The notes under the pieces are model-generated. The model saw nothing but the letters and a program-made list of their open reading frames with translations. It did not search any database and had not been told where the DNA came from. A stretch of DNA of 64,000 nucleotides from Halobellus clavatus (GTDB lineage Archaea; Halobacteriota; Halobacteria; Halobacteriales; Haloferacaceae). A program made the translations under genes and the position numbers. Below, piece after piece: positions 6,242-30,360 of the stretch (positions within the stretch are counted from its first letter, which is position 1; every line of letters starts with the position of its first letter). The DNA lies in the NCBI RefSeq assembly GCF_900107195.1, contig NZ_FNPB01000004.1, forward strand, positions 124,001 through 188,000, written 5' to 3'.

Positions 6242-6391
6242 GCCGATGGAATGAGCCGGCGGACGCAATCCACAGACTGTCCGTCGCGTGATCATTCGAG
6301 GCCGCACCCGCCTCCCCGCTCTCCCGTTCGGCTCTCTAACGGCAGGTCGCGACACGTATTTTGCCGTCCACACCAAGGGCGGGTACGATCT

Positions 6392-8980: not shown

Positions 8981-9197
8981 CGGCCGGGCGCGCGCTCCCC
9001 GACCGCGGCGGCCCCGTCATATCGCCGGACTGTCAGACTGTGGTTCGCGCACGCGTCGCGAGGTGACCAATTCGTAGGGCGGCGGAGAATCGGCACAAAA
9101 CGCCCCTCTGTAGCTTCACACGCGCGTTTCCTGGGCCGGCCAGCGGGCCTCACCGTTGTCTTTATGCCCGTGACAGAATCACCGAGAGACAGGAACA

Positions 9198-11747
9198 ATG
9201 AGTGCAGACTTCCCATCGCAGGCGGACACCGTCGTCATCGGAGCCGGCGCGGTCGGCTGTAGCGTCGCATATCACCTCAGCGAACTCGGCGCCGAAGACG
9301 TCGTGGTCGTGGACCAGGGCCCACTCCCCGTCACCGGCGGCTCGTCGGTCCACGCCCCGGGCATTATGTTTCAGACGTCGCCCTCGAAGATCCAGACCAA
9401 AGCGGCGTACTACACCAGTCGCCTGCTCTCGGACGCGGGAGTCTACGACGAGGTCGGCGGGATCGAACTCGCCCGTAGCGAAGAGCGGATGGACTTCCTC
9501 CGCCGCCGCGTCGAGTGGGCGGAGTCCTACGGCCTTCCGGACCCGCAGTTACTCTCGCCCGAGGAGGTCACTGAGCACTTCCCGCTCGTCGACGAGGACG
9601 AGATCCTCGGCGGGTACTACTCCCCGACCGACGGTCGCGTGGACGGCATCTCGGCCCTGCAGTGGTACATCGCCAAGAGCGACGGTGCCGACTTCTACGG
9701 CAACGTCGAGGTGACGGATCTCGACGTCGCCGGCGATTCGATCGGCGCGGTCGAGACCGACCGCGGCACGATCGACTGCGACCGCTGCGTCATCGCGACC
9801 AACAACTGGGGGTATCAGACGGCCCAGATGGCCGATCTCGACCTCCCGATCGCCCCGGTCGAACACCAGTACGTCGTCACCGAAGCCCTCGAGGAACTCT
9901 CGGGCGTAGACTCGAACGTCGGCAGCAACACCGAGGGGCTGCAGGTTCCCGGAAACGGCGATATTCAGGAGTACATGAGCGAGGGGCCCCACCGACCGGT
10001 CGGTCGCGACCAGGACAACTCGCTGTACTTCCGAACCCACGGCGACTCGCTGGGACTGGGATCGTACAACCACGAGGCGCTCTCGGTCGACCCAGACGTG
10101 ATGGGCAAGAACTCAGAAGAGAGCCAGGCGTCCGTCCACAGTTTCACCAGCGAGCACTGGGAGAAGGCCACTCACCCGGACCGCGAGAAGTCCCCCAAAC
10201 AGGCCTTCGACGAGCTGCTGCCGGCCACGAAAGACGTGGAGTACGAGGCCACCGAGAACGGCATCTTCGTGTTCACTCCCGACGGGATGCCCGCGATTGG
10301 CCCGACGCACGTCGACGGCCTCTGGAGCGCGCTCGCCATCTGGTGGACGCACTCCGGTGGCTACGGGAAGATCATCGCCGAGTGGATGGAGAACGGCGTG
10401 CCGCGACTCCCGTCGGGCCCCGTCGACACCGGCGGCGTCCACGTCCGTCGGTTCAGCCCGCACGCGGGCGAGAAGAACTACTTCGTCGACAAGGGCGCGA
10501 CGCGCTACCGCCAGGTCTACAGCATCGTCGAGCCGCGCTGGCAGCCGGACAAGCACCGCGGACTCCGGCGGAGCCCCTTCTACGACCGACAGCAGGACCT
10601 CGGGGCGGAGTTCTATCAGTCCGGCGGCTGGGAGTCCGCACAGTGGTACGATTCGAACGCCGACCTCGTCGAGGAGTACGAGGCCCAGATCCCCGACCAG
10701 GACGGCTGGCAGTCGATCAACCGCTCGAAGATCGAGGCCGCCGAGCATCTCCACACGCGCGATGCGGTCTCGATGTTCGATATGACCTCGTTCAGTTCGA
10801 TTATGGTCGAGGGCGCAGACGCCGGCGACTTCCTCCAGCGGGTGTGCAGCAACGACGTCGACATCGACGTCGGCGACGTGCGCTACTCCCTCCTGCTGAA
10901 CGAGGGTGGCGGCATTCTCGCAGACGTGACCGTCGTCCGCCTCGGTGCCGAGGAGTATATGGTCACCACCGGCGGCGGCAACTCGCCCGGCATCCACGGC
11001 GGCTGGCTCGAAGACCACGCCCCCGAGACCGTCTCCGTGACCGTCGAAGAGGGCGCAAAGAGCACGATCGGCCTGTGGGGGCCGAAGTCACGGCTCCTGC
11101 TCCAGCGCTGTACCGACGCCGACGTCTCCAACGACGACTTCCCGTACTTCAGCGCCAAGCAGATCTACGTCGGGGAGGTGCCCGTGATCGCCCTGCGCGT
11201 GTCCTACGTGGGCGAACTCGGCTGGGAACTGTGGGCGCCGACCGAGTACGGAAACCGGCTCTGGGAAACGCTTTATGAGGCCGGGCAGGATCTGGACGTC
11301 CGACCCATGGGCGGCGGCGCGCTGGAATCGATGCGCTTAGAGAAGGGCTACCGCCTCTGGGGCACCGACATCGACACCGACTCCAACCCCTACGAGGCGG
11401 GCCTCGGCTTCGCGGTCGATCTCGACACCGACTTCATCGGCAAGGAAGCACTCGAAGCGGCGAAGGCCGAGGGCGTCGACGCCGAGATCACGCCGATCAC
11501 GCTGGACGACTCCACGGACATCCTGCTGTCGGGCCGTCCGGTCCTCGTCGACGGCGAGGCGCAGGGATACGTCCAGGCCGCCGACTTCGGCTACACGATC
11601 GGCGAATCGATCGCCTATACGTACCTGCCCACGGAGTACACCGAGGCCGGGACGGACGTCCAGGTCCGGTGTGAGGGCGAACTGTACGACGCGACCGTCC
11701 GGAACGAACCGCTGTTCGATCCCGGCCGCGAGAAGATCATCCGATAA
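9198..11747 (+). CDS. FAD-dependent oxidoreductase-GcvT fusion, dimethylglycine/sarcosine dehydrogenase type (paralogue 2)
   Basis: An 849-residue tandem paralogue of the upstream gene with the same order: FAD domain (VVIGAGAVG, then GGSSVHAPGIMFQ with candidate flavin histidine H52), connector, and GcvT-like folate domain with GGILADVTVVR holding the conserved aspartate. Differences from paralogue 1 are spread throughout, with an extra segment near residue 240 (VDSNVGSNTEGLQ), so this is an old duplication. A TCTTTATG box lies about 35 bp before the ATG and a purine-rich GAGAGACAGGA precedes it. The ammonia-lyase gene starts 61 bp downstream and may share the transcript. Dimethylglycine and sarcosine are natural candidates for the pair, but which enzyme does which is unknown. 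Confidence 0.9.
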   Translation: MSADFPSQADTVVIGAGAVGCSVAYHLSELGAEDVVVVDQGPLPVTGGSSVHAPGIMFQTSPSKIQTKAAYYTSRLLSDAGVYDEVGGIELARSEERMDFLRRRVEWAESYGLPDPQLLSPEEVTEHFPLVDEDEILGGYYSPTDGRVDGISALQWYIAKSDGADFYGNVEVTDLDVAGDSIGAVETDRGTIDCDRCVIATNNWGYQTAQMADLDLPIAPVEHQYVVTEALEELSGVDSNVGSNTEGLQVPGNGDIQEYMSEGPHRPVGRDQDNSLYFRTHGDSLGLGSYNHEALSVDPDVMGKNSEESQASVHSFTSEHWEKATHPDREKSPKQAFDELLPATKDVEYEATENGIFVFTPDGMPAIGPTHVDGLWSALAIWWTHSGGYGKIIAEWMENGVPRLPSGPVDTGGVHVRRFSPHAGEKNYFVDKGATRYRQVYSIVEPRWQPDKHRGLRRSPFYDRQQDLGAEFYQSGGWESAQWYDSNADLVEEYEAQIPDQDGWQSINRSKIEAAEHLHTRDAVSMFDMTSFSSIMVEGADAGDFLQRVCSNDVDIDVGDVRYSLLLNEGGGILADVTVVRLGAEEYMVTTGGGNSPGIHGGWLEDHAPETVSVTVEEGAKSTIGLWGPKSRLLLQRCTDADVSNDDFPYFSAKQIYVGEVPVIALRVSYVGELGWELWAPTEYGNRLWETLYEAGQDLDVRPMGGGALESMRLEKGYRLWGTDIDTDSNPYEAGLGFAVDLDTDFIGKEALEAAKAEGVDAEITPITLDDSTDILLSGRPVLVDGEAQGYVQAADFGYTIGESIAYTYLPTEYTEAGTDVQVRCEGELYDATVRNEPLFDPGREKIIR

Positions 11748-11808
11748 CGGGACGAACTCATCCCACTCCCTGGTCGGTCACTGACCGACCGATCCACTCA
11801 CCACGACG

Positions 11809-13074
11809 ATGACAGAATCAGAATCCACCGACCCCGACGCGGACGAACTGCCCGTGCAGTACGTTGACATCGAACGTGCACGCGAACGACTCGACGACGA
11901 GACCGTCGTCAAACAGACGCCAGTCGAGGAGAGCACGTCGCTCGGCGCCCTCGTCGACGCCGACGTCCACTTGAAGATGGAACATCTTCAGTGGACGGGC
12001 TCGTTCAAGACCCGTGGCGCGTACAACAAGATCAGCCAGGACGTCGCCGACGGCGTCACCGACTTCGTCGCCGCCAGCGCCGGCAACCACGCCCAGGGCG
12101 TCGCACTCGCGGCCACGAAGTGCGGCGCGGACTCGACGATCTATATGCCGACCGACGCCCCGCAGGCGAAGGTAGACGCCACGCGGAGTTACGGTGCGAC
12201 CGTCGAACTGGTGGGGAAAGACTTCCAGGAGACGATGTCCCACGCGCAGGCCGCCGTCGAGGAGACCAACGCCGAGTTCGTCCACGCGTACGACGACACC
12301 GACATCATCGCCGGCCAGGGCACCCTGGGCACGGAGATGTACCACGACCTCCCGGACGCCGACACGGTGATCGTCCCCATCGGCGGCGGTGGTCTGATCA
12401 GCGGGATCTCGACGGCGATGAAGCACCTCTCGCCGGAGACGCGCGTCGTCGGCGTCCAGGCGACCGGCGCGGAGACGGTCCACGAGAGCCTCGACAAGGG
12501 GATGCCGGTCACCCTCGACGAGGTCGATACCATCGCCGACGGCATCGCGACCGGCGGGATTTCCGAGACCACGTTCCGGTGCATCCGGGCGAACGTCGAC
12601 GAGGTCGTCACCGTCACCGACACCGAGATCGCCCGCGCGATTCTCCTGTTGATGAAGCGCGCGAAGCAGGTCGTCGAGGGCGCGGGTGCGGCCTCGGTGG
12701 CGGCGATGTTGAGCGACGACCTCGACGTGAGCGGCGAGACCGTGATGCCGCTGCTCTGCGGCGGCAACCTCGATATGACGCAGTTGCAGACGGTGCTCGT
12801 CCACGCGCTGACCCAGCGGAAACAGCGGATCCGGCTTCGCGTCCGGATCGACGACCGGCCGGGCAAGATGGAGGACATCTCCGGCATCATCGCCGATCAG
12901 GGAGCGAACATTCACAACGTCCGGCACGACCGCTCGGTCGCAGACTTAGAAGTCGGCGAGGCGTATCTGGTGTTCACCGTGATGACGAGCGGCGCGGAGC
13001 ACGCCGCGAGCATCGTCGACGCGATCGAGGCCGCGGACTACCGCGTCGAGGACGTCACCCGATCGCAGAACTGA
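11809..13074 (+). CDS. threonine/serine ammonia-lyase (PLP fold type II) with C-terminal ACT domain
   Basis: A 421-residue PLP enzyme that deaminates threonine to 2-oxobutanoate and commonly serine to pyruvate. The PLP lysine is in TGSFKTRGA, the phosphate loop is PIGGGGLISG, and ASAGNHAQGVA is the substrate motif. Residues 335-421 (RLRVRIDDRPGKMEDISGI) form one ACT domain, as in the TdcB/short IlvA class. It lies 61 bp after paralogue 2 of the methylamine dehydrogenase fusions. In that setting serine made from sarcosine-derived glycine would be the likely flux substrate, giving pyruvate plus ammonia. RidA near 37 kb would clear the reactive enamine product. A role in isoleucine synthesis cannot be excluded. 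Confidence 0.93.
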   Translation: MTESESTDPDADELPVQYVDIERARERLDDETVVKQTPVEESTSLGALVDADVHLKMEHLQWTGSFKTRGAYNKISQDVADGVTDFVAASAGNHAQGVALAATKCGADSTIYMPTDAPQAKVDATRSYGATVELVGKDFQETMSHAQAAVEETNAEFVHAYDDTDIIAGQGTLGTEMYHDLPDADTVIVPIGGGGLISGISTAMKHLSPETRVVGVQATGAETVHESLDKGMPVTLDEVDTIADGIATGGISETTFRCIRANVDEVVTVTDTEIARAILLLMKRAKQVVEGAGAASVAAMLSDDLDVSGETVMPLLCGGNLDMTQLQTVLVHALTQRKQRIRLRVRIDDRPGKMEDISGIIADQGANIHNVRHDRSVADLEVGEAYLVFTVMTSGAEHAASIVDAIEAADYRVEDVTRSQN

Positions 13075-13096
13075 GGGGGACCGCGGCCCCGGCGGT

Positions 13097-13924
13097 TCAG
13101 TCGCCGCCGAGGGCCGAACTCATTCCACCCGCCGCGGAAACCACTCGCTCGTTGGCTGCCACCCACCGCAGGAGCAGGAACGAGAACACGTACTTCGCGA
13201 GGACGTCGAGCGCCGAGTACCCCCACGAGGTGAGCCCCACAGACTGGACGATGGCGAATCCTTCGACGCCGACGGCCCAGATGATCGGATAGCCGAGCCA
13301 CAGCACGACCGTCAGGACGCGCAGCGTCCCGAAGATCTCGCCGGTGCCGGCGCCATCTGCGGACTCTGGCCACTCGACCAGCAGTGCGTAGAGGACCACG
13401 AGGAAGAACGCGCAGCTGACGATGTAGAACAGCCAGCGGAACATGTACGAGGAGGTGATCAGCGCGGCCGCGAGGCCGGTCACACACATCCCGATGTCGG
13501 CCGCGATGACGGTGAAGATGCTCCCGGCATCGACGTCAGCCAACAGGCCGAGCGCGAGGAGGATCATCGGCGTCGAGAGCGCCCACGTGAGGTAGCGACC
13601 CCACTGGCTCATCACTTCCTCACCCGCCAGGGCGTGCCCCGCGGGCATCTCGATGAAGCCGACGGTCAGCCCGGAGGCGAGTCCCAGATAGCTGGATATC
13701 GATACCAGTGGGATCAGGAGCGTCGCGCCCCAGATCAGACGCGCCCGGCCCGCCTCGACGTTCCGTCCCATATACACGAAGAGGAGGATCGAGAGCCCGG
13801 CGAGCGCGATGTTGATCCACAGTGACGAACTCAACAGGGCGTCGTTCTGGATCTGCGTGAACGCGTCGCTCTGTGTCGCCTGCAGGAGTACGGTACTTAC
13901 GTCGATCGTTCCAGGTAATGGCAT
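13097..13924 (-). CDS. hop: halorhodopsin, light-driven chloride pump
   Basis: A 275-residue seven-helix retinal protein. In helix C the sequence WGRYLTWALSTPMILLALG has R110, T113, S117 and A124 at the positions of R82, D85, T89 and D96 of bacteriorhodopsin, the TSA motif of halorhodopsins. The retinal lysine is K244 in SALDVLAKY. The stretch TSSYMFRWLFYIVSCAFFLVVLY and the GYPIIWAVGVEG helix also match halorhodopsin. It pumps chloride inward in light. The gene is convergent with the ammonia-lyase (22 bp between stops). A CTTATTAG box about 33 bp before the ATG and a 12-bp palindrome over the start codon mark its promoter. Confidence 0.97.
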   Translation of the reverse strand: MPLPGTIDVSTVLLQATQSDAFTQIQNDALLSSSLWINIALAGLSILLFVYMGRNVEAGRARLIWGATLLIPLVSISSYLGLASGLTVGFIEMPAGHALAGEEVMSQWGRYLTWALSTPMILLALGLLADVDAGSIFTVIAADIGMCVTGLAAALITSSYMFRWLFYIVSCAFFLVVLYALLVEWPESADGAGTGEIFGTLRVLTVVLWLGYPIIWAVGVEGFAIVQSVGLTSWGYSALDVLAKYVFSFLLLRWVAANERVVSAAGGMSSALGGD

Positions 13925-13934
13925 AGTGCACTAT
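13923..13934. promoter_or_regulatory. 12-bp palindrome over the halorhodopsin start
   Basis: ATAGTGCACTAT is a perfect palindrome overlapping the ATG of hop, at or just after the expected transcription start (TATA-like CTTATTAG at about 13954-13961 on the reverse strand). Such a position would suit a repressor, but no regulator can be named. Confidence 0.35.
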
Positions 13935-14052
13935 CCCGTACGCGTTCGAGGTACTAATAAGTGGGATGACGATCCGTCGATTATCGGCTCACTCGACACC
14001 AATGTGGCCAAAAATTACTTTATATCCGGCGACAAATGGGAACGGAAACTCG

Positions 14053-14070
14053 AACGGGGATCGCCCCGTT
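14053..14070 (-). terminator. hairpin at the end of etfA
   Basis: AACGGGG, a four-base ATCG loop and CCCCGTT form a 7-bp GC-rich stem that begins in the etfA stop codon. No strong T run follows on the reverse strand, so it may be an mRNA end-stabilising or termination structure. Confidence 0.45.
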
Positions 14071-15037
14071 AACTGTGGCCGCGGCGCTCCAGTTCGTCGC
14101 TGACAGCCGGCAGGACCTCGTGGAGGTCGCCCGTGACGGCCCAGTCGGCCTTCTGGATGATCGCCGCCTCGGGATCGGTGTTCACCGCGAGGATGTTTTC
14201 GGCACCCTTACAGCCGACCATGTGCTGGACGGCACCGCTGATGCCACAGGCGATGTAGATCTCGGGGGCGATCTTGTTCCCGGTCTGGCCGATCTGGTCG
14301 TCGTGCGGCCGCCAGCCCTCGTTGACCGCGGCGCGGGAGGACCCGACAGCCGTGTTGGGGAGGTGATCGGCCAGGTCCTCGATCTCCGAGAAGTCGCCGT
14401 CGGTCCCGCGACCGCCGGAGACGACGACTCGCGCTTCCGCCAGGGGAACGCCTTCGACGTCGGACTCTTCGACCTCGGTCAGTCGAACCCGGAGGTCGCT
14501 GTCTTCGAGGTCGGGCGTGAACGCGCTGACGTCGGCGGGACCGTCGCCGGTCCCGCTCGTCGAGATCTCGTTGGGCGCGACCGTCAGCAGATTGGTGTCT
14601 GCGTCGAGTTCCGCGTGCTCGATGAGCGTGCCGCCCCAGCGCTGGCGCGTCAGTTCGTAGGTGTCACCGACCTCGACGTCAGTGACCTCGGCGGCCATCG
14701 TCTCGTCGAGTTTCGCCGCCACGTGGGCGAGGATTTCCGACCCGCGGTCCGTCCCGGGCGCGACGACCGCTTCCGTGCCGGTCTCCTCGGCGCACTGGAT
14801 CACGGCTCGGGCGTACGCCTCGGGCGTGTAGTCGTCGAGATCGCTGTGATCGACCACGTTGAGGACCTCCACGCCGTGTGCGCCGACGTCGTCCGCGACG
14901 CCCTCCGCTTCGGGGCCGAAGGCGATGGCTTCCAGCGCCTCGCCGGCGTCATCGGCGACCGAACGGGCGAGGGTGAGCGCTTCGAGCGAGTTGTCGTCGA
15001 CTGCACCGCTGTCGTGTTCGACTAACGAGAGTACCAA
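14069..15037 (-). CDS. etfA: electron transfer flavoprotein alpha subunit
   Basis: A 322-residue ETF alpha subunit. The C-terminal FAD domain carries VVVSGGRGTDGDF, VGSSRAAVNEGWRP, QIGQTGNKIAPEIYIACGISGAVQH and AVNTDPEAAI, the standard FAD-binding series. With EtfB it takes electrons from flavin dehydrogenases and passes them to the membrane. It starts two bases after the etfB stop with TTG, an unusual codon; no ATG or GTG fits the conserved MVLSLVEHD start, so translation is probably coupled to etfB. The three methylamine-type dehydrogenase fusions in this window are the obvious electron donors, and the EtfD-like protein at 19 kb the obvious acceptor. Confidence 0.96.
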   Translation of the reverse strand: MVLSLVEHDSGAVDDNSLEALTLARSVADDAGEALEAIAFGPEAEGVADDVGAHGVEVLNVVDHSDLDDYTPEAYARAVIQCAEETGTEAVVAPGTDRGSEILAHVAAKLDETMAAEVTDVEVGDTYELTRQRWGGTLIEHAELDADTNLLTVAPNEISTSGTGDGPADVSAFTPDLEDSDLRVRLTEVEESDVEGVPLAEARVVVSGGRGTDGDFSEIEDLADHLPNTAVGSSRAAVNEGWRPHDDQIGQTGNKIAPEIYIACGISGAVQHMVGCKGAENILAVNTDPEAAIIQKADWAVTGDLHEVLPAVSDELERRGHS

Positions 15038-15039
15038 TG

Positions 15040-15795
15040 TTATAGCACCTCCAGTTCCTCGAGCACGTCGACGACTTCGTCCGCCGCCTCGGGGCTTTCA
15101 CCGAGGATATCGGCGGGGCTGTCGTCGGTCTCGGGGACTTCGAGTTCGAGCAGTTCGAGGCCATCGTCGGTGGGCTCCGGTTCGACCTGGTCGACGGAGG
15201 CCTTCCGGGCCTGCATCTTCGCCCGCATCGAGGGGTACCGCGGTTCGTTGAGGCCCTCTTTGACCGTGATGACGGCCGGAAGATCGACCTCGTAGACCTC
15301 GGCACCGCCGGGGATCTCCCGCTTCGCGACGGCGGTGTCGCCGTCGACGTCGAGGTCTTTGACCCCGGTGACGCACGGCACGTCCAGGTGCTCGGCGACG
15401 CGGACGCCGACCTGGTGGTTGGCCGTGTCGGCCGACTCGTTCCCGAAGAGGAACAGGTCGAAGTCCGTCTTCTCCGCCTCGACGGCGCTCGCGATGGCGC
15501 TGGCGGTCGCTTTCGGACCCCACTCCCCGCCGTCGGTGGGGAGCAACAGTCCGTCGTCGGCTCCCATCGCGATGGCCGAACGGAGTTGCTCGGTCGCGTC
15601 CTCCTCGCCGAGTGTGAGTGCCGTCATATTGCCGCCGTTCGCTTCGACTAACTGCACGCCCTCTTCGACGGCACACTCCTCGTGCGGGCTGAACGTGAAG
15701 CCCAGCGAGCTGGTGTCGATGTCTCGCTTGTCCTCGGTCAATACGATCTTCGCGCCCGTCTCGGGCACGCGCTTGATGGCTGTGAGTACTTCCAT
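15040..15795 (-). CDS. etfB: electron transfer flavoprotein beta subunit
   Basis: A 251-residue ETF beta subunit with the usual start (MEVLTAIKRVPETGAKI), a nucleotide-site strand near DFDLFLFGNESADTANHQVG and the C-terminal signature region VITVKEGLNEPRYPS followed by MRAKMQARK. It forms the AMP-binding half of the ETF heterodimer. It is transcribed in the order paralogue-3 dehydrogenase, etfB, etfA. Two strong hairpins fill the 93-bp gap before it, so its level may be set separately from the dehydrogenase. The ATG at 15795 is clear. Confidence 0.96.
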   Translation of the reverse strand: MEVLTAIKRVPETGAKIVLTEDKRDIDTSSLGFTFSPHEECAVEEGVQLVEANGGNMTALTLGEEDATEQLRSAIAMGADDGLLLPTDGGEWGPKATASAIASAVEAEKTDFDLFLFGNESADTANHQVGVRVAEHLDVPCVTGVKDLDVDGDTAVAKREIPGGAEVYEVDLPAVITVKEGLNEPRYPSMRAKMQARKASVDQVEPEPTDDGLELLELEVPETDDSPADILGESPEAADEVVDVLEELEVL

Positions 15796-15828
15796 ACGTG
15801 TGTGAATCCTGCGTCGCGTGGTGGTTCG

Positions 15829-15883
15829 GACGGGCGATCGATCGCGTCGTTCGCCCGTCGCGTGTCCGGACCGATGTCCGGAC
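15829..15883 (-). promoter_or_regulatory. tandem hairpins between dehydrogenase paralogue 3 and etfB
   Basis: Two inverted repeats follow each other. GTCCGGAC-CGAT-GTCCGGAC (15864-15883) has an 8-bp stem whose arms are themselves palindromic, and begins six bases after the dehydrogenase stop. GACGGGCGA/TCGCCCGTC (15829-15859) has a 9-bp stem and 13-base loop. They could end or process the dehydrogenase transcript or stabilise the etfBA part. No T run follows, so simple intrinsic termination is uncertain. Confidence 0.5.
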
Positions 15884-15888
15884 GCCGT

Positions 15889-18423
15889 TCAGTAGTCGTT
15901 CCGGAACAGGCGGTCACCCTCGGGGTCGAAGACGCCGCCGTGTCCGACGACCTCGACCTCGACGGGGTAGTGCTGGCCGAAGTATTCGACCTGCAGTTCC
16001 TCGCCTTCGTTCGCGTACTCCTGCGGCAGGTACGAGAGCAGGAGGTGCTTGCCGACCGACGGGCCCGTCCCGGCGGAGGTGACGTACGAGCGCCGACCCT
16101 CGTCGTCGATCAGGACGTCGCCATCCTGGTCGAGGATCGGTTCCCCACCCGTCATGAACCGCGGCTCGCCGCCGTCCGGCGCGTGGTCAGTGACCGAGAG
16201 GGTACACAGCGTGGCTGCGTTCTCCGCTTCGATGGCCTCGACGTACGCCTCCTTGCCGACGAAGTCGGCGTCCTTGACGCCGTGGAACGTCAGCCCGGCC
16301 TCGGCGGGGTTGTAATCGATCTCGAGTTCCGCACCCATCAGCCGGTAGCTCTTCTCCATCCGGCCGGTCTCGCCGTAGACGCCGGTCCCGACCGGGCGGA
16401 TGTCGTACTCCTGTCCGGCCTCGTAGATGGTGTCCCAGAGCTTCTGGCCCTGGTCCATCGGGACGTACAGCTCCCAGCCGTACTCGCCGACGTAGGAGAT
16501 CCGGAAGGCCTGGACTCGCACCGGGCCGATGGTGACCTCCTTCATCTCCGCGAAGTCGAAGGTGTCCGTCGACATCTCCTCCTCGGCGAGTTCGTTCAGC
16601 AGTTCCTGGGCGTTCGGTCCCCAGACGCCGAGCGTGGCCAGTTCGGAGGAGCGGCCGATGAGTTCGACGTCGCCTTCGAGGTGGTTCTGGAACCACGTCT
16701 TGTCCTGTCCGGCGTGTGCGCCGCCGGTGATGACGCGGTAGTGGTTCTCACCGATCCGGGCGACCGTGAGGTCCGACACGAAGCCGGCGTTCGGTGCCAG
16801 CACCGGCGTGTAGGCGGACTCGCCGACGTCGACGTCCATCTCCGCGACGCAGAGCTGCTGCATGTTCTCCATCGCGTCGTCGCCGACGATGTCGAAGATC
16901 CCGAAGCCGGTGTCGCCGATCATCCCGACGTTGTCGCGCATGTGGAGGTGCTCGCCGAGGATGATGTCGGACCACCAGCGGCTGTCCCACTCGTTGGGAC
17001 GCTGGAGGCCTTCGATCTCGTCGCTGTACTTCTCGACGAGGTCCGCGTTCGATTCGTACCACCGCGGGCGCTCCCAGCCGCCGGCCTCGAAGAACTCCGC
17101 GTCGAGGTCTTCCTGGCGGTTGTAGAACGCGCTCGTCCGCAGGGGTCGCGTGGACTGCCACTGCTCGCGCGGGTGGACGATGCCGTAGGTCTTCTGGAAG
17201 CCTTCGGCCCCTCGGCTCTTGACGAACTCTCTGGTCTCGCCGTACTCGTCGAAGCGGGCGACGTGGTCGTGGGCGACGATGTCGATGTCGGGGTGGCCCT
17301 TCGTCATCCACTTCGAGACCTCGCGGGCGATCGCGGGCGCTTCCTTGATCCAGATGGCGGCACACGACCACAGGCCGTCGACTTCCGGGATCGGGCCCAG
17401 CAGCGGGTGGCCGTCCGGCGTGACCGAGAGGAGTCCGTCGATGGAGTGACGGATCCCGGCGTCGGGGTCGTCGAGCACGTCGGGGATGATTTCGAGCGCG
17501 TGCTCCATCGACTGCTCGAAGGCGTCCTCCGTCAGCGGCGGCTGGGTCGGCGAGAGGGGCGCCTCCTCGATGGAGGGCACGTCGTCGACGTCCCAGAGGA
17601 TCGGCCGGTGCTCATACGAGCCGACCTCGATGTCGTTGCCGTGCTGTCGCTCGTACATCTGGGTGTCCATGTCGCGGACGACCGGGTAGTTGATCTCACC
17701 CTCGCCGTCCTCGAACCGCTCGATGGGGCCCACAGAGACCATCTGGTGGACCGCCGGCGACAGCGGGATGTCGACGCCGGCCATCTCTGCGATCTTTGGA
17801 CTCCACAGTCCGGCGGCGATGATCACCTCGTCGGCCGCGACGGTGCCCGCGTCGGTCTCGACGGCCTGAATGTCGCCGTCCTCGACGTGGAGGTCGGTTA
17901 CTTCGGTGTTGGCGGCCGTGCTGAGTGCGCCCTTGTCCTTCGCCTGCTGGCGGTAGAGTTCGCCGGCGCGGAGCGGGTCACACGTGCCCGCGCCCGGACT
18001 GTAGAAGCCGCCCTTGATGATGTCGGTGTTGAGATAGGGGACGAGTTCCTCGACTTCCTCGGGCGTGAGGAGTTCGGCCTCCTCGCCGAAGGACTTCGCG
18101 GAGACGACCCGTCGCTTCAGCTCCTCCATTCGCTCTTCGGTCCGGGCGACCTCGATCCCGCCGGAGTTGGTGAACGTATCGAAGTCGCGGTAGATGTCCC
18201 GGCTGACCGAGGTCAGCTTCGTCATGTCCTTGCTGTGGTCGACCGGGAAGATGAAGTTCGACGCGTGACCGGTCGAGCCGCCGGGGTCCGACAGCGGCCC
18301 CTTGTCGATCAGCAGAATATCGTCTCGGCCGCGTTCGGCCAGCTCGCCCGCCAGCGAACTGCCGACGATTCCGGCCCCGATGATGACTGTGCCTGCGCTC
18401 TGTGGTAGATCGTTTGTGCTCAT
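15889..18423 (-). CDS. FAD-dependent oxidoreductase-GcvT fusion, dimethylglycine/sarcosine dehydrogenase type (paralogue 3)
   Basis: An 844-residue fusion, more divergent than the other two. The FAD motif is VIIGAGIVGSS, and the flavin-attachment region reads PGGSTGHASNFIF, keeping the histidine (H53) but replacing the following PG with SN. The C-terminal folate domain keeps the key aspartate in GFVSDLTVAR. It heads an operon with etfB and etfA, so electrons very likely go to ETF. The ATG at 18423 starts MSTNDLPQSAGTV, right before the FAD fold; upstream open frame (to 18552) lacks domain character. A reverse-strand CTTATCG box near 18520 would give a leader of roughly 70 nt. The exact N-methyl substrate is unknown. 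Confidence 0.9.
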   Translation of the reverse strand: MSTNDLPQSAGTVIIGAGIVGSSLAGELAERGRDDILLIDKGPLSDPGGSTGHASNFIFPVDHSKDMTKLTSVSRDIYRDFDTFTNSGGIEVARTEERMEELKRRVVSAKSFGEEAELLTPEEVEELVPYLNTDIIKGGFYSPGAGTCDPLRAGELYRQQAKDKGALSTAANTEVTDLHVEDGDIQAVETDAGTVAADEVIIAAGLWSPKIAEMAGVDIPLSPAVHQMVSVGPIERFEDGEGEINYPVVRDMDTQMYERQHGNDIEVGSYEHRPILWDVDDVPSIEEAPLSPTQPPLTEDAFEQSMEHALEIIPDVLDDPDAGIRHSIDGLLSVTPDGHPLLGPIPEVDGLWSCAAIWIKEAPAIAREVSKWMTKGHPDIDIVAHDHVARFDEYGETREFVKSRGAEGFQKTYGIVHPREQWQSTRPLRTSAFYNRQEDLDAEFFEAGGWERPRWYESNADLVEKYSDEIEGLQRPNEWDSRWWSDIILGEHLHMRDNVGMIGDTGFGIFDIVGDDAMENMQQLCVAEMDVDVGESAYTPVLAPNAGFVSDLTVARIGENHYRVITGGAHAGQDKTWFQNHLEGDVELIGRSSELATLGVWGPNAQELLNELAEEEMSTDTFDFAEMKEVTIGPVRVQAFRISYVGEYGWELYVPMDQGQKLWDTIYEAGQEYDIRPVGTGVYGETGRMEKSYRLMGAELEIDYNPAEAGLTFHGVKDADFVGKEAYVEAIEAENAATLCTLSVTDHAPDGGEPRFMTGGEPILDQDGDVLIDDEGRRSYVTSAGTGPSVGKHLLLSYLPQEYANEGEELQVEYFGQHYPVEVEVVGHGGVFDPEGDRLFRNDY

Positions 18424-18619
18424 ATGTGTCGTCTCTCTCTGTTGAGCGGTTGGTCTGTTGCCGTTCGCACCGATGCGTCCGCCGAAGTCACGTTGTGGTC
18501 CACATAGGTGTGTTCTTGGCGCTCGATAAGAACCAACTATACCAATCGTCAATTAGATACCCCCGGATTATTGAACCTCGTTTTATGTGATCTCCTGTGA
18601 CCGACCGCTCGCCGCTGAC

Positions 18620-19019: not shown

Positions 19020-21221
19020 ATGGTTGCAGAAGGAGCGACGACCAGACCGACGTTCTGGCAGATCGGGCACGTCGGCGAGATCATCTTCTACCTCCTCGCC
19101 GCGGTCGCGATCGTGATCTTCGCGTACGGACTGTACAGAAAGATCGACCGATACACCTCGGGGCAGGAAGACTGGTTCGACAGACTCGACGACTTGCCGA
19201 CGCGGATCGTCGAGGCGACGCGGATCGTCCTCTCGAATCGGAAGCTGTTCGACCGCGACACCACCGGCGGCGTGATGCACGCCCTGATTATGTGGGGCTT
19301 TCTCACCCTCCTGATCGGGACGACGATCCTCGCGATCGATATGGACATCTATCAGCCGCTGACGGGGCTCACCGGCGCCGAGCAGTCGTTCTTCATCGGC
19401 GATTTCTACCTCTCGTACTCGTTCGTGATGGACGCGATGGGCCTGCTCTTCGTCGTCGGCGTCGGCGTCGCGCTGTACCGCCGGTACGCCGCCCGCGAGG
19501 AGCGGCTGTGGGGGAAACACACGAGTATCGAAGACGACCTCTTCATCTGGGCGCTGTTCCTCCTGGGCGTCGGCGGCTACGTCACTGAGGGCATCCGGAT
19601 CCTCGGGACGGGCTTCCCCGACTTCGAGACGGTCAGTTTCGTCGGGTGGTTCCTCGCGGAGGCGTTCGCTGTCGCCGGGATGAACGAGTCCCTCGCAGCG
19701 ACGGTCTACCCGGCCGTCTGGTGGTCGCACTCGCTGCTCGCGCTGGCGTTCGTGGCCGCCATCCCGTACGCGAAACCGTTCCATATGCTCTCGTCGTACA
19801 TCAACATCGTCGCGCGCGACGAGAAGGCGGGCGCGCGCCTCCCGGGCATCCCCGCCGACCTCGACGCCGACACCGGCGCGGAATCCATCGACGACTTCTC
19901 CTGGAAGGAGATGCTCGATCAGGACGCCTGTACGAAGTGCGGCCGCTGTTCGTCGGCCTGCCCGGCGAAAGCGTCCGGTCGCCCGCTCGACCCGCGGGAC
20001 GTGATCCTCGATCTCAAACAGTACCGCGAGGACCTCGACGCCGGCGAGACCGAGGAGATCGACATCGTGACCGACGGCGGCGAGAGCGTGATCGCCGCCG
20101 AGACGATGGAGTCCTGTATGTCGTGTATGGCGTGTATGGACGCCTGTCCGGTCGACATCGAGCATCTCAAGTCCTTCACCCGGCTGAACCGACAGCTCAC
20201 CGACACGGGGCAGGTCGATTCCAACGTTCAGGATACCTTCGACAACATCATGGGGATGGGCAACACCTTCGGCGACCCGCCGGACGCCCGGGCCGACTGG
20301 GCCGACGAACTGGGGTTCGACGTCACCGACGCACGTGAGGAGGACGTCGAGTACCTCTGGTACGTCGGCGACTACCCGAGTTACGACGAGCGGAACAAGA
20401 AGGTCGCCCGCTCGCTGGCGAAGATTCTCGAACACGCCGACATCGAGTACGGCATCCTCTTCGAGGACGAGAAGTACGACGGCAACGACATCCGCCGTCT
20501 GGGAGAGGAGTTCCTCTACGTGGACCTCGCGGGCCACCACGTCGAGCAGTTCGAGGCCGTCGACCCCGAGAAGATCATCTGCACCGATCCGCACTCGTAC
20601 AACACGTTCAAGAACGAATATCCGGACGTCAACTACGATGACTTCGCCGACGAACCGCTGATGCAGTTCGACTTCGACGGCGAGTGGAACGCCGACGGGG
20701 AGATCGACGTGCTCCACTGGACGCAGGCGATCGAGGAACTCGTCGAGGAGGACCGCTTGGACCTTCGCGGCGACGAACTCGATTACACCGTCACCTACCA
20801 CGACCCCTGTCACCTCGGCCGGTACAACGACGAGTACGAGGCGCCCCGAGCACTCATCCGCGCGACCGGCGCAACGCTCTCTGAGATGCCGCGCAACCGC
20901 GCGAACTCGTTCTGTTGCGGCGGCGGTGGCGGCGGCCTCTGGATGGACATCGACGAGGAGACGAAACCCAGCGAGGAGCGGATGCGCGAGGCGCTCGAAG
21001 ACACGCCTGCCGGCAGCGACGTCGAGAAGTTCGTCGTGGCCTGCCCGATGTGTATGACGATGTACGAAGACGGGATGAAGACCGGCGGCTACGAGGACGA
21101 CATCGAGATCGTCGACGTCGCTGAACTGCTCGTCGAGGCGCTCGAGAGCGGCCCAGGCATCGAAGCCGGCGTCACCACGGACGCCGACGCCGACGGTCGG
21201 GCCAGCGGACAGGCAGACTGA
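19020..21221 (+). CDS. EtfD-like membrane Fe-S protein (probable ETF:quinone oxidoreductase)
   Basis: A 733-residue protein. Residues 1-260 form a multi-helix membrane domain of the respiratory nitrate reductase gamma/DgcB kind. Two [4Fe-4S] motifs follow: CTKCGRCSSACP (304-315) and CMSCMACMDACP (366-377). The last 290 residues resemble two CCG (heterodisulfide-reductase type) modules. The second is intact: DPCHLG at 595-600, FCCGGGGGG at 631-639 and a late CPMC. The first has lost its cysteines (see findings). EtfD proteins link reduced ETF to menaquinone and DgcB-like proteins serve dimethylglycine demethylase. A CTTTTAA box at 18986-18992 fits a leaderless ATG at 19020. Confidence 0.9.
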   Translation: MVAEGATTRPTFWQIGHVGEIIFYLLAAVAIVIFAYGLYRKIDRYTSGQEDWFDRLDDLPTRIVEATRIVLSNRKLFDRDTTGGVMHALIMWGFLTLLIGTTILAIDMDIYQPLTGLTGAEQSFFIGDFYLSYSFVMDAMGLLFVVGVGVALYRRYAAREERLWGKHTSIEDDLFIWALFLLGVGGYVTEGIRILGTGFPDFETVSFVGWFLAEAFAVAGMNESLAATVYPAVWWSHSLLALAFVAAIPYAKPFHMLSSYINIVARDEKAGARLPGIPADLDADTGAESIDDFSWKEMLDQDACTKCGRCSSACPAKASGRPLDPRDVILDLKQYREDLDAGETEEIDIVTDGGESVIAAETMESCMSCMACMDACPVDIEHLKSFTRLNRQLTDTGQVDSNVQDTFDNIMGMGNTFGDPPDARADWADELGFDVTDAREEDVEYLWYVGDYPSYDERNKKVARSLAKILEHADIEYGILFEDEKYDGNDIRRLGEEFLYVDLAGHHVEQFEAVDPEKIICTDPHSYNTFKNEYPDVNYDDFADEPLMQFDFDGEWNADGEIDVLHWTQAIEELVEEDRLDLRGDELDYTVTYHDPCHLGRYNDEYEAPRALIRATGATLSEMPRNRANSFCCGGGGGGLWMDIDEETKPSEERMREALEDTPAGSDVEKFVVACPMCMTMYEDGMKTGGYEDDIEIVDVAELLVEALESGPGIEAGVTTDADADGRASGQAD

Positions 21222-22511: not shown

Positions 22512-24272
22512 ATGTCAGACAGTGATCAAACCGGCGAGATGTCCGATGGACTTCAGGTCGAACTCTTCCACCCGGAGTCCGACCGCGAGCCCGGAGACAC
22601 GAACATTCAGAAGTTCGGATTCGACATCCATCCGGTCGTCTTCCCGGTCGCGCTCGCGATCGTCGCGCTCTTCATCGCGGTGACGGTCATCCTCGGTGAC
22701 AGCGCCGCGAGTGCGTACACGTGGCTCTTCAACTTCATCGGGGAGAACTTCGGCTGGTTCTACCTGCTGGCGGTGAACATCTTCATCGTCGTGTTGCTGT
22801 ACTTCGCGTTCGGGAAGTTCGGCAACATCAAGATCGGTGGCGTCGAAGCCGAGAAGGAGTTCAGCGACTTCTCGTGGATGGCGATGCTGTTCAGTGCCGG
22901 GATGGGTATCGGCCTGATGTTCTTCAGCGTCCTCGAGCCCGTGTTCTACTTCAACAGCGTTCCGGGCTTCTGGGGCGCTGAGGCCGGCACCGGTGCCGCC
23001 GCCTCGGCCGCGATGGCACAGACGTTCTTCCACTGGGGCTTCCACCCGTGGGCCGTCTACGGCCTCGTCGGTCTCGGACTGGCGTTCTTCTCGTTCAACC
23101 GCGGACTGCCGCTCACCTTCCGGTCGATCTTCTGGCCGCTGCTCGGTGACCGGATCTACGGGTGGCCGGGACACCTGATCGACCTCGTGACGGTGTTCGC
23201 GACGTTGTTCGGGCTGGCGACCTCGCTAGGCCTCGGCGTCGCCCAGGTGAACACGGGACTCCAGTACGTCACGACCGACATTCTGGGAATCCTGGGAAGC
23301 TTCCCGAACAACACGCTCACACAGATCGCACTCATCGGGGGCATCACCGCCATCGCGACCCTCTCGGTCGCCGCCGGCCTCGACGGCGGCGTCAAGCGCC
23401 TGAGCACGATCAACCTCTACTTGATGTTCGTGCTGCTGGGCTTCCTCCTCATCGTCGGCCCGACGGTCTTCATCCTCGGGACGTGGGTGGAGGGTCTCGG
23501 TGCGTATCTCGGGAACATCGTCAGCCTCGGCTTCTTCCGCGGGACGATGGGTGCCGGCGGCGGCACCGTCACCGCGTGGACCGTGTTCTACTGGGGCTGG
23601 TGGATCGCGTGGTCGCCCTTCGTCGGGATGTTCATCGCGCGTATCTCGAAGGGCCGGACCGTCCGCGAGTTCGTCCTCGGGGTCCTGTTCCTGCCGTCGA
23701 TGTTCTCGACCATCTGGCTGTCGACGTTCGGTGGGAGCGCTCTGAACGGCGCCATCGGTGAGGGCACCAACGGTGTCGTGGGCGCGTACAACGAACTCGG
23801 CTACGCCACCTTCGAGACGCTGGGGATGTTCGTGATGCTCAATCAGTACCCGCTCGGCGCCATCTCGGCGTCGCTGGCGACGCTGCTCGTCATCACGTTC
23901 TTCGTGACGTCGTCGGACTCGGGCTCGCTGGTCATCGACCACCTGACCTCGGGCGGCAAGCACGACGTCCCGAAGACCCAGCGGATCTTCTGGGCGGTCA
24001 CCGAGGGCGCGGTCGCCGCGCTCCTCCTGTACGGCGGTGGCCTCAGCGCCCTGCAGACGGCGGCCATCACGACCGGGCTCCCCTTCGCGGTGATCCTGTG
24101 TCTGATGTGTTACACCGTCTATCTCGGCCTCGATAACGAGTACCAGATCCTCGAGTCCGAGGAGTTCGCAGAGCGCATCCAGGACATGACCGAAGAGGGC
24201 GACGTCGACGTCGTCACCACTGGGGACGAAGTCGTCACAAACGTCGAAGACGACACCGTCAGCGGGGACTGA
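22512..24272 (+). CDS. BCCT family transporter (betaine/choline/carnitine type)
   Basis: A 586-residue BCCT carrier with about 12 membrane helices and acidic tails. The sodium/substrate region has SAGMGIGLMFFSVLEP (G130-M-G-I-G134), equal to the GMGIG motif of sodium-coupled BetP, and the aromatic substrate box is WTVFYWGWWIAWSPFVGMF. Such carriers import glycine betaine or related trimethylammonium solutes with Na+. It lies downstream of the methylamine dehydrogenase/ETF island and plausibly supplies its substrates; a purely osmoprotective role is equally allowed. The C-terminal tail (VDVVTTGDEVVTNVEDD) is short and acidic. Confidence 0.95.
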   Translation: MSDSDQTGEMSDGLQVELFHPESDREPGDTNIQKFGFDIHPVVFPVALAIVALFIAVTVILGDSAASAYTWLFNFIGENFGWFYLLAVNIFIVVLLYFAFGKFGNIKIGGVEAEKEFSDFSWMAMLFSAGMGIGLMFFSVLEPVFYFNSVPGFWGAEAGTGAAASAAMAQTFFHWGFHPWAVYGLVGLGLAFFSFNRGLPLTFRSIFWPLLGDRIYGWPGHLIDLVTVFATLFGLATSLGLGVAQVNTGLQYVTTDILGILGSFPNNTLTQIALIGGITAIATLSVAAGLDGGVKRLSTINLYLMFVLLGFLLIVGPTVFILGTWVEGLGAYLGNIVSLGFFRGTMGAGGGTVTAWTVFYWGWWIAWSPFVGMFIARISKGRTVREFVLGVLFLPSMFSTIWLSTFGGSALNGAIGEGTNGVVGAYNELGYATFETLGMFVMLNQYPLGAISASLATLLVITFFVTSSDSGSLVIDHLTSGGKHDVPKTQRIFWAVTEGAVAALLLYGGGLSALQTAAITTGLPFAVILCLMCYTVYLGLDNEYQILESEEFAERIQDMTEEGDVDVVTTGDEVVTNVEDDTVSGD

Positions 24273-28638: not shown

Positions 28639-30360
28639 ATGGCGTCAGACGAAGACAGCGGCTTCCCGACAGACTACGAAATCGCACAGGACGCAGAGAA
28701 AGAACCGATCACGGACGTCCTCGAATCCTGGGACGTCGCGGCAGACGATCTCGAACTCTACGGCGACTATAAGGCGAAACTCTCCCACGACGCGGTCAAT
28801 CGGTTCCGCGACCAGTCCGACGAGAAGGAAGGCAACCTCGTCCTCGTGACGGGGATGACGCCGACGCCGATGGGCGAGGGCAAGACCGTGACGACGGTCG
28901 GCCTCGGCCAGACGCTCAACCACGTCGGTGAGGACGCGATGATCGCGATCCGTGAACCGTCGCTCGGGCCGGTCTTCGGTGTAAAGGGCGGCGCGGCCGG
29001 TGGCGGCTACTCCCAGGTCCTTCCGATGGAGGACATCAATCTCCACTTCACGGGCGACCTCCACGCGCTCACCTCCGCGCACAACCTCATCGCGGCGATG
29101 CTCGACGCGAAGATCTCCCAGAGCGACGAGTTCGACATCGACGTCAACGAGGTCTCGTGGCCGCGGGCGATGGATATGAACGAGCGAGCCCTCCGCGACA
29201 TCGTGGTCGGCCTCGGTGGCTCGTCGGGCGGCACGCCGCGCGAGAGCCGGTTCCTCCTCACGGCGGCCTCCGAGCTGATGGCCGTCCTCTGTCTCGCCGA
29301 GGACCTCGCCGATCTGAAAGAGCGCATCGGGCGCATCATCCTCGCCTACACCGAAGACGGCGACCCGGTCACCGTCGACGACATCGACGCGACCGGCCCG
29401 GCCGCGATGCTCCTGAAGGACGCGATCCGACCGAACCTCGTCCAGACGATCGAGGGCACGCCCGCGTTCGTCCACGGCGGTCCCTTCGCGAACATCGCCC
29501 ACGGGACGAACTCCCTGATCGCGGACAAGGCGGCGTTCGGGATGGGCGATTACCTCGTCACCGAGGCCGGCTTCGGCTCTGATCTCGGTGCGGAGAAGTT
29601 CATGAACATCGTCTGCCGTCTCGGCGATATGACGCCGAACGCCGTCGTCCTCGTCTCGACGGTGCGCGCGCTGAAGTACCACGGGATGGGTATGTGGCCC
29701 GCCGACCTCGACGAGGTCAAAGAGGCCGGCGTCGAGGAACTGAAAGCCGGCTTCGCGAACCTCGACAAGCACGTTCGCAACCTCCAGAAGTTCGGCGTCC
29801 CGGTCGTCGTCGCGCTCAACCGCTTCCCCGACGATACCGACGAGGAGATCGAGGCCGTCGTCGAGCACTGCCGCGAGGATCTCGGCGTCGAGATCGCCGA
29901 GTCGAACGTCTTCGCCGAGGGCAGCGAAGGCGGCGTCGACCTCGCGAACCACGTCACCGACGCGGTCGAGGAGAACGACCCCGAGGACTTCGAGCACCTC
30001 TACCCCGACGACGCGCCGATCAAAGAGAAGATCGAGACGGTCGCTACCGAGATCTACGGTGCCGACGGCGTCAACTTCACCGGCGACGCCGAAGACGACA
30101 TCGAGCGCCTCGAGGACCTCGGCTTCGACGACGTGCCGGTCTGTCTCTCGAAGACGTTCCACTCGCTCAGCGACGACCCCTCGAAGAAGGGCGCGCCCGA
30201 GGGCTGGGAACTGGAAGTCCGCGAACTCTACCCCTCGGCGGGCGCAGGCTTCATCGTCGCGCTGACGGGTGACGTGCTCGACATGCCCGGTCTGCCGGCC
30301 GAACCCGCGGCCGCCGGGATGGACATCGACGCCGACGGCAACATCAGCGGCCTGTTCTAA
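28639..30360 (+). CDS. fhs: formate--tetrahydrofolate ligase
   Basis: A 573-residue monofunctional ligase joining formate and THF with ATP to give 10-formyl-THF; the reaction is reversible. The P-loop TPTPMGEGKT, the REPSLGPVFGVKGGAAGGGY segment and EAGFGSDLGAEKF are diagnostic. In a catabolic setting it can run backwards, making ATP from formyl-THF and releasing formate for the dehydrogenase encoded at 32.5 kb. It is divergent from folCP across a repeat-rich control region. The ATG at 28639 is preceded by a pyrimidine-rich stretch without a Shine-Dalgarno site, so a leaderless or short-leader transcript is likely. Confidence 0.97.
   Translation: MASDEDSGFPTDYEIAQDAEKEPITDVLESWDVAADDLELYGDYKAKLSHDAVNRFRDQSDEKEGNLVLVTGMTPTPMGEGKTVTTVGLGQTLNHVGEDAMIAIREPSLGPVFGVKGGAAGGGYSQVLPMEDINLHFTGDLHALTSAHNLIAAMLDAKISQSDEFDIDVNEVSWPRAMDMNERALRDIVVGLGGSSGGTPRESRFLLTAASELMAVLCLAEDLADLKERIGRIILAYTEDGDPVTVDDIDATGPAAMLLKDAIRPNLVQTIEGTPAFVHGGPFANIAHGTNSLIADKAAFGMGDYLVTEAGFGSDLGAEKFMNIVCRLGDMTPNAVVLVSTVRALKYHGMGMWPADLDEVKEAGVEELKAGFANLDKHVRNLQKFGVPVVVALNRFPDDTDEEIEAVVEHCREDLGVEIAESNVFAEGSEGGVDLANHVTDAVEENDPEDFEHLYPDDAPIKEKIETVATEIYGADGVNFTGDAEDDIERLEDLGFDDVPVCLSKTFHSLSDDPSKKGAPEGWELEVRELYPSAGAGFIVALTGDVLDMPGLPAEPAAAGMDIDADGNISGLF

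Follow-up and report, generated by a model that had tools for sequence, protein, structure and literature searches.

The window analysed here, a stretch of 64,000 nucleotides from Halobellus clavatus, encodes a 733-aa membrane iron-sulfur protein that has none of the four cysteines which bind cluster D1 in the related mycobacterial protein EtfD. We read it, with a probability of roughly 0.83, as a haloarchaeal ETF:menaquinone oxidoreductase of the EtfD/DgcB/FadF kind (ETF, electron-transfer flavoprotein) that lacks D1 and would receive its electrons at cluster D2. This reading builds on the absence of the D1 cysteines, the presence of the other cofactor ligands, the conservation of this state throughout the family and a genomic link to ETF. 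As judged from the alignments, the D1-less state is an old, family-wide trait and not a fresh loss in Halobellus clavatus.

The protein starts with a membrane heme domain, followed by a 2x[4Fe-4S] domain and two CCG modules (Table 1). Pfam recognized CCG, Fer4 (2x[4Fe-4S]) and Nitrate_red_gam domains. The match of the membrane domain (nitrate-reductase-gamma-like) was weak, and the CCG match (PF02754) spanned residues 591-681, i.e. the second module only, leaving the first module unmatched. The Fer4_ETF_QO domain (PF05187), the iron-sulfur domain of ETF-QO, was absent from the Pfam scan of the protein, which is thus not an ETF-QO of the mammalian/FixC type; the Halobellus clavatus genome had no match to PF05187 either. 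NCBIfam gave nothing above the cut-off among the matches listed (25 of 31). The best solved relative is EtfD of M. smegmatis (9ojn), found by phmmer (9ojn_A, E 9e-76) and by Foldseek (E 1.8e-29). A predicted model (mean pLDDT 81.1, pTM 0.80), built on a haloarchaea-only alignment and free of cofactors, could be superimposed on 9ojn by VIA-align with Z 29.0 over 638 residues (rmsd 3.1, identity 30%). Its weak parts in the D2 region are residues 599-605 and 626-638 (pLDDT <50). The fold evidence covers matches to EtfD and HdrB. HdrB/HdrD of heterodisulfide reductase share the two CCG modules and the fold (Z 17.9-18.9 for HdrB chains), but use two noncubane clusters to cleave the heterodisulfide, according to extracts of PMC13083937. 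Going by its full-length homology, the 733-aa protein belongs to the EtfD family in the wide sense, that is, to the ETF:menaquinone oxidoreductases with CCG modules.

Table 1. Positions of the genes, modules and ligand sites in the window (n, rows of the haloarchaeal alignment)
Feature	Positions	Strand	Basis
Bacteriorhodopsin-family gene	13097-13924	-	Pfam E 1.8e-48
ETF alpha subunit, open frame	14069-15037	-	PF01012 match 14513-15034, 94.6 bits, E 1.3e-26
ETF beta subunit	15040-15795	-	Pfam ETF E 8.7e-38
Dimethylglycine/sarcosine dehydrogenase-like flavoprotein (DAO + GCV_T)	15889-18552	-	Pfam
EtfD-like membrane iron-sulfur protein, 733 aa	19020-21221	+	Open frame, Pfam, phmmer, Foldseek, VIA-align
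Heme b ligand counterparts H87 (19278-19280) and H255 (19782-19784)	19278-19784	+	Alignment to EtfD
Cubane ligands: D4 C304, C307, C310, C376; D3 C314, C366, C369, C372	19929-20147	+	142/142 rows each
First CCG module, without D1 cysteines (about residues 443-560)	20346-20700	+	phmmer alignment, haloarchaeal alignment
D451 = EtfD C503 (D1 ligand)	20370-20372	+	Codon read; D in 142/142 rows
Y486 = EtfD C538 (D1 ligand)	20475-20477	+	Codon read; Y107 F18 N15 H1 T1, n=142
D523 = EtfD C581 (D1 ligand), directly N-terminal of model helix 524-536	20586-20588	+	D in 142/142 rows
H525 = EtfD H583 (histidine ligand of D2)	20592-20594	+	H in 142/142 rows
S526 = EtfD C584 (D1 ligand)	20595-20597	+	Codon read; S139 A3, n=142
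Second CCG module, D2 ligands C597, C632, C633, C675, C678 all present	20808-21053	+	Alignment to EtfD, haloarchaeal alignment
BCCT transporter, near the EtfD-like gene	22512-24272	+	
Formate-THF ligase	28639-30360		

In EtfD, D1 is a linear [3Fe-4S] cluster held by C503, C538, C581 and C584, and D2 a noncubane [4Fe-4S] cluster held by C637, C672, C673, C709 and C712 together with H583 (extracts of PMC13083937). A sequence-only reading of the window had placed D451, Y486, D523 and S526 at the cysteine positions of the first module, and both the codons and the phmmer alignment to 9ojn_A, on which we counted the equivalences listed in Table 1 by hand, agree with it. The sites lie in the local motifs VGDYPSYD (D451), EKYDGND (Y486) and TDPHSYNT (D523/S526), so the protein differs at all four positions from an EtfD with a linear D1. 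The alignment also bears out that the protein retains the remainder of the first module (including RRLGEEFLY and FKNEYPD), the second module and the two ferredoxin motifs (C304/307/310/376 and C314/366/369/372). The same reading overlooked that H525, within the altered CPHC motif, corresponds to a D2 ligand. By this homology the first module would still serve one cluster, D2, and is not a mere relic; a role of H525 as D2 ligand would also explain why the PH of the motif is unchanged.

The protein contains 14 cysteines. Eight correspond to cubane ligands and five to D2 ligands, and only C521 has no ligand counterpart. D1 therefore cannot form from cysteines. Other conserved cysteines that could act as ligands, a possibility under which the original claim would have failed, were not found: an alternative cysteine set for D1 is ruled out by the single spare residue. 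Off-site cysteines are frequent in haloarchaeal rows (C514 in 118 of 142, C521 in 138 of 142), and we considered the two as replacement ligands; the window protein has no C514, and two residues cannot make a four-ligand site. One of the four usual iron-sulfur clusters, D1, is thus probably missing, and, with EtfD as the reference, the evidence agrees well with the earlier statement that the protein carries one cluster less.

The rest of the electron path has counterparts for all its ligands, since those of D2, D3, D4 and heme b are present. H255 is found in all 142 haloarchaeal rows and H87 in 141 (one gap). F94 and F244, the counterparts of quinone-contact residues, lie between these histidines and are invariant in alignment A2.

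The haloarchaeal alignment comprised 142 rows, including the query and its own copy in the searched genomes, and 135 distinct sequences. A cysteine occurs at none of the D1 sites in any row. This four-site absence exceeds what chance or sequencing errors would produce. D451, D523 and H525 never vary, while site 486 varies freely; the tyrosine singled out by the sequence-only reading is indeed a non-cysteine residue, but only one of several in use there (Y, F, N, H and T in the alignment, M and A in further loci). We also inspected 28 further loci from 21 hand-chosen genomes, second copies included, and saw no cysteine at any site that could be read. For 25 of these loci, some of which overlap within a single gene, the four positions could all be read. 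Seen alone, four ligand changes within one module resemble decay, and the gene might be taken for a pseudogene, an assembly error or a protein with a dying module. The identical state in all 142 rows refutes such a recent degeneration in this genome; the second copies are alike, and the surroundings of the D1 site rank among the most conserved stretches of the first module. We therefore regard the chance of degeneration as negligible. The protein was found in 356 of the 392 genomes of the order. The cysteine-free state is common to all haloarchaeal homologs examined and to their nearest bacterial relatives, so that the loss predates the Halobellus clavatus lineage; to say that this particular protein "has lost" the cysteines is misleading.

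Outside the haloarchaea, we compared the D1 sites in bacterial rows, all from plasmid records, and in rows of other archaea. The labels DgcB, FadF and EtfD are our own assignments, based on sequence similarity, gene context and general knowledge of these families. The nearest relatives found are nine proteobacterial EtfD-like proteins (Azoarcus, Paracoccus and kin), the best four of which are 37-38% identical to the window protein over most of its length. All nine have D451 and D523, and eight have S526. The six DgcB rows carry D or E at 451, D at 486, D at 523 and a variable residue at 526, and the three FadF rows S at 451, N at 486, D or C at 523 and A or T at 526. The four actinobacterial EtfD rows have cysteine at all four sites. 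Archaeal rows outside the haloarchaea mostly show C at 451, C at 486, S or C at 523 and C at 526. Many of these (15 rows) read xSPHC and have the CC pair in the middle motif; the first cysteine of CPxC is a serine in them, which makes for a different first-module ligand set. A separate peculiarity of the proteobacterial relatives is found in the second CCG module, where eight of the nine have CPKD for the expected CPxC. With the last D2 cysteine replaced by Asp, D2 of these proteins may be altered too.

A maximum-likelihood tree of 70 rows was calculated with the ligand columns excluded; it is unrooted and has long branches. The haloarchaea form a clade of their own (100/100) beside the proteobacterial EtfD-like rows, with which they are joined (100/99), and outside DgcB, so the 733-aa protein does not fall inside the DgcB clade. 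FadF is placed near actinobacterial EtfD. A single clade of all D1-less rows was rejected (AU test, p 0.0025), whereas one clade of haloarchaea, proteobacteria and DgcB is compatible with the data (p 0.188). The presence of the D1 cysteines in Hdr-like relatives suggests that they are ancestral. If so, the wider family would have lost D1 on at least two occasions, since the single clade is rejected, and perhaps on three. The tree also bears on whether the change from Cys to Asp is a by-product of the acidic, salt-adapted haloarchaeal proteome. Haloarchaeal proteins are known to be acidic (extracts of PMC3102087), and Asp accounts for two of the four replacements. However, rows from Azoarcus, Paraburkholderia, Cupriavidus and Agrobacterium also carry Asp at sites 451 and 523 and group with the haloarchaea. 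Salt adaptation is largely refuted by this and appears very improbable.

Proteins without D1 are not new. According to extracts of Courbon et al. (EMBO J 2026, PMC13083937), FadF and DgcB have no D1 cysteines, and the authors inferred that electrons pass in these proteins from ETF directly to D2. The window protein shares with this group the absence of the D1 cysteines and the retained D2 ligands. The possibility that the family itself lacks the cysteines, which would have undercut the claim of a loss, thus holds for the haloarchaeal family and, in the same extracts, for DgcB and FadF, but not for EtfD proper. DgcB, represented in these extracts by the P. aeruginosa protein, resembles the haloarchaeal protein in having D/E at 451, D at 523 and the D2 histidine and cysteines, and is likewise connected to dimethylglycine catabolism, but its identity of about 32-34% is confined to the soluble part, and it occupies a separate tree branch. 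FadF of Bacilli also keeps the D2 ligands without D1, but sits beside actinobacterial EtfD in the tree. Mycobacterial EtfD has the full-length fold, D2, D3, D4, heme b and the quinone-contact residues in common with the haloarchaeal protein; it differs in its four D1 cysteines (D, Y, D and S in the haloarchaeal protein) and in a long disordered tail (extracts of PMC13083937), where the haloarchaeal tail is short. The operons of the Azoarcus and Paracoccus proteins resemble the window in encoding a FAD enzyme, an aminomethyltransferase and ETF; unlike the window protein, eight of the nine proteobacterial proteins have the Asp in D2 mentioned above. A literature search found no report of a haloarchaeal D1-less EtfD, and the haloarchaeal proteins add a large archaeal family to the D1-less kind already known from DgcB and FadF.

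Several observations connect the protein to ETF. The Halobellus clavatus genome contains one match for the EtfD-like protein, and its sole ETF pair adjoins that gene. The flavoprotein encoded next to the ETF genes is likely an electron donor to ETF, and the genome has three acyl-CoA dehydrogenase matches. ETF was found in 381 of the 392 genomes of the order, and all 11 genomes without it also lack the EtfD-like protein (Fisher 8e-13, kinship ignored; ten are named among the genomes without an EtfD-like match, and G363 is absent from the match list). Conversely, ETF is still present in 25 of the 36 genomes that lack the EtfD-like protein, which means that other acceptors are open to haloarchaeal ETF. 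ETF genes lie within about 8 kb of the EtfD-like gene in only four of the 66 haloarchaeal loci with full flanks, and gene neighbours are weak proof of a partnership across the order. The protein might then be some other CCG/Hdr-like reductase that stands beside ETF genes by chance. Against this stand the full-length match to EtfD with all ligands of the electron wire kept, the ETF genes adjoining those of four bacterial relatives (L118, L119, L120 and L196) and the co-occurrence at the genome level, and we consider it improbable that ETF is not the partner.

The surroundings of the gene showed some further features. In 43 of the 66 haloarchaeal loci, a divergent gene for a protein of about 196 aa, some 0.8 kb upstream, takes the place of ETF. 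Of the eight genomes sampled from the genus Halobellus, two have neither ETF nor the EtfD-like protein. In the window, a cluster at 6251-18552 encodes three DAO + GCV_T proteins, one threonine ammonia-lyase and the ETF pair, and is accompanied by a formate-THF ligase gene. A bacteriorhodopsin-family gene lies inside this demethylation/ETF cluster and is present in another Halobellus locus, too.

Under the D1-less oxidoreductase reading, the neighbouring ETF would be reduced by FAD enzymes such as the adjacent dimethylglycine/sarcosine dehydrogenase-like proteins and acyl-CoA dehydrogenases. It would then pass its electrons to the noncubane D2 in the second CCG module without a D1 step, and from D2 they would reach menaquinone by way of the cubanes D3 and D4 and heme b. 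Though it would hold no cluster of its own, the first CCG module would be retained as the source of H525 for D2 and as the wall of the site.

The conserved replacements may have roles of their own. In the model, helix 524-536, which carries H525, begins directly after D523, and D523 may cap it. Asp and Ser are favoured as caps at helix N-termini. Across the 70 family rows, site 523 is C in 15, D in 36 and S in 19, with nothing else, so that it holds either a cluster ligand (C) or a good helix cap (D/S). It is also possible that the invariance of D451 and D523 is more than an empty pocket needs and reflects a metal or another role. One such alternative is a D1 site that holds a single metal ion or another small cluster, with D451, D523 and perhaps S526 as ligands. 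Both aspartates are invariant in the 142 haloarchaeal rows and the nine proteobacterial relatives, and all six DgcB rows likewise have an acidic residue at 451 (D/E) and D at 523. Invariance alone is weak evidence for a role of these residues, though, because 39 of the 146 module-1 columns (~27%, hand count) are invariant in alignment A2 anyway, and the position of D523 at a helix N-terminus, at a site where the family uses only C, D and S, speaks for the cap. We consider such a metal site unlikely.

A related and similarly doubtful idea is that the emptied D1 pocket has been re-used as a D451/D523 carboxylate site beside D2, as a metal site or a proton relay. If true, this site would tune D2 or couple ETF docking to electron entry; it would be fixed in the haloarchaeal/proteobacterial group and regained or inherited in DgcB.

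For the family as a whole, the D1-less oxidoreductase reading bears on which cluster accepts the electrons of ETF, a point that the EtfD structure did not settle. The D1 ligands are missing from an order-wide archaeal family and from one or more independent bacterial lines, and these natural variants make D2 the likely point of entry and D1 probably dispensable. As genetically tractable aerobic hosts, the haloarchaea lend themselves to testing whether electrons enter at D1 or at D2.
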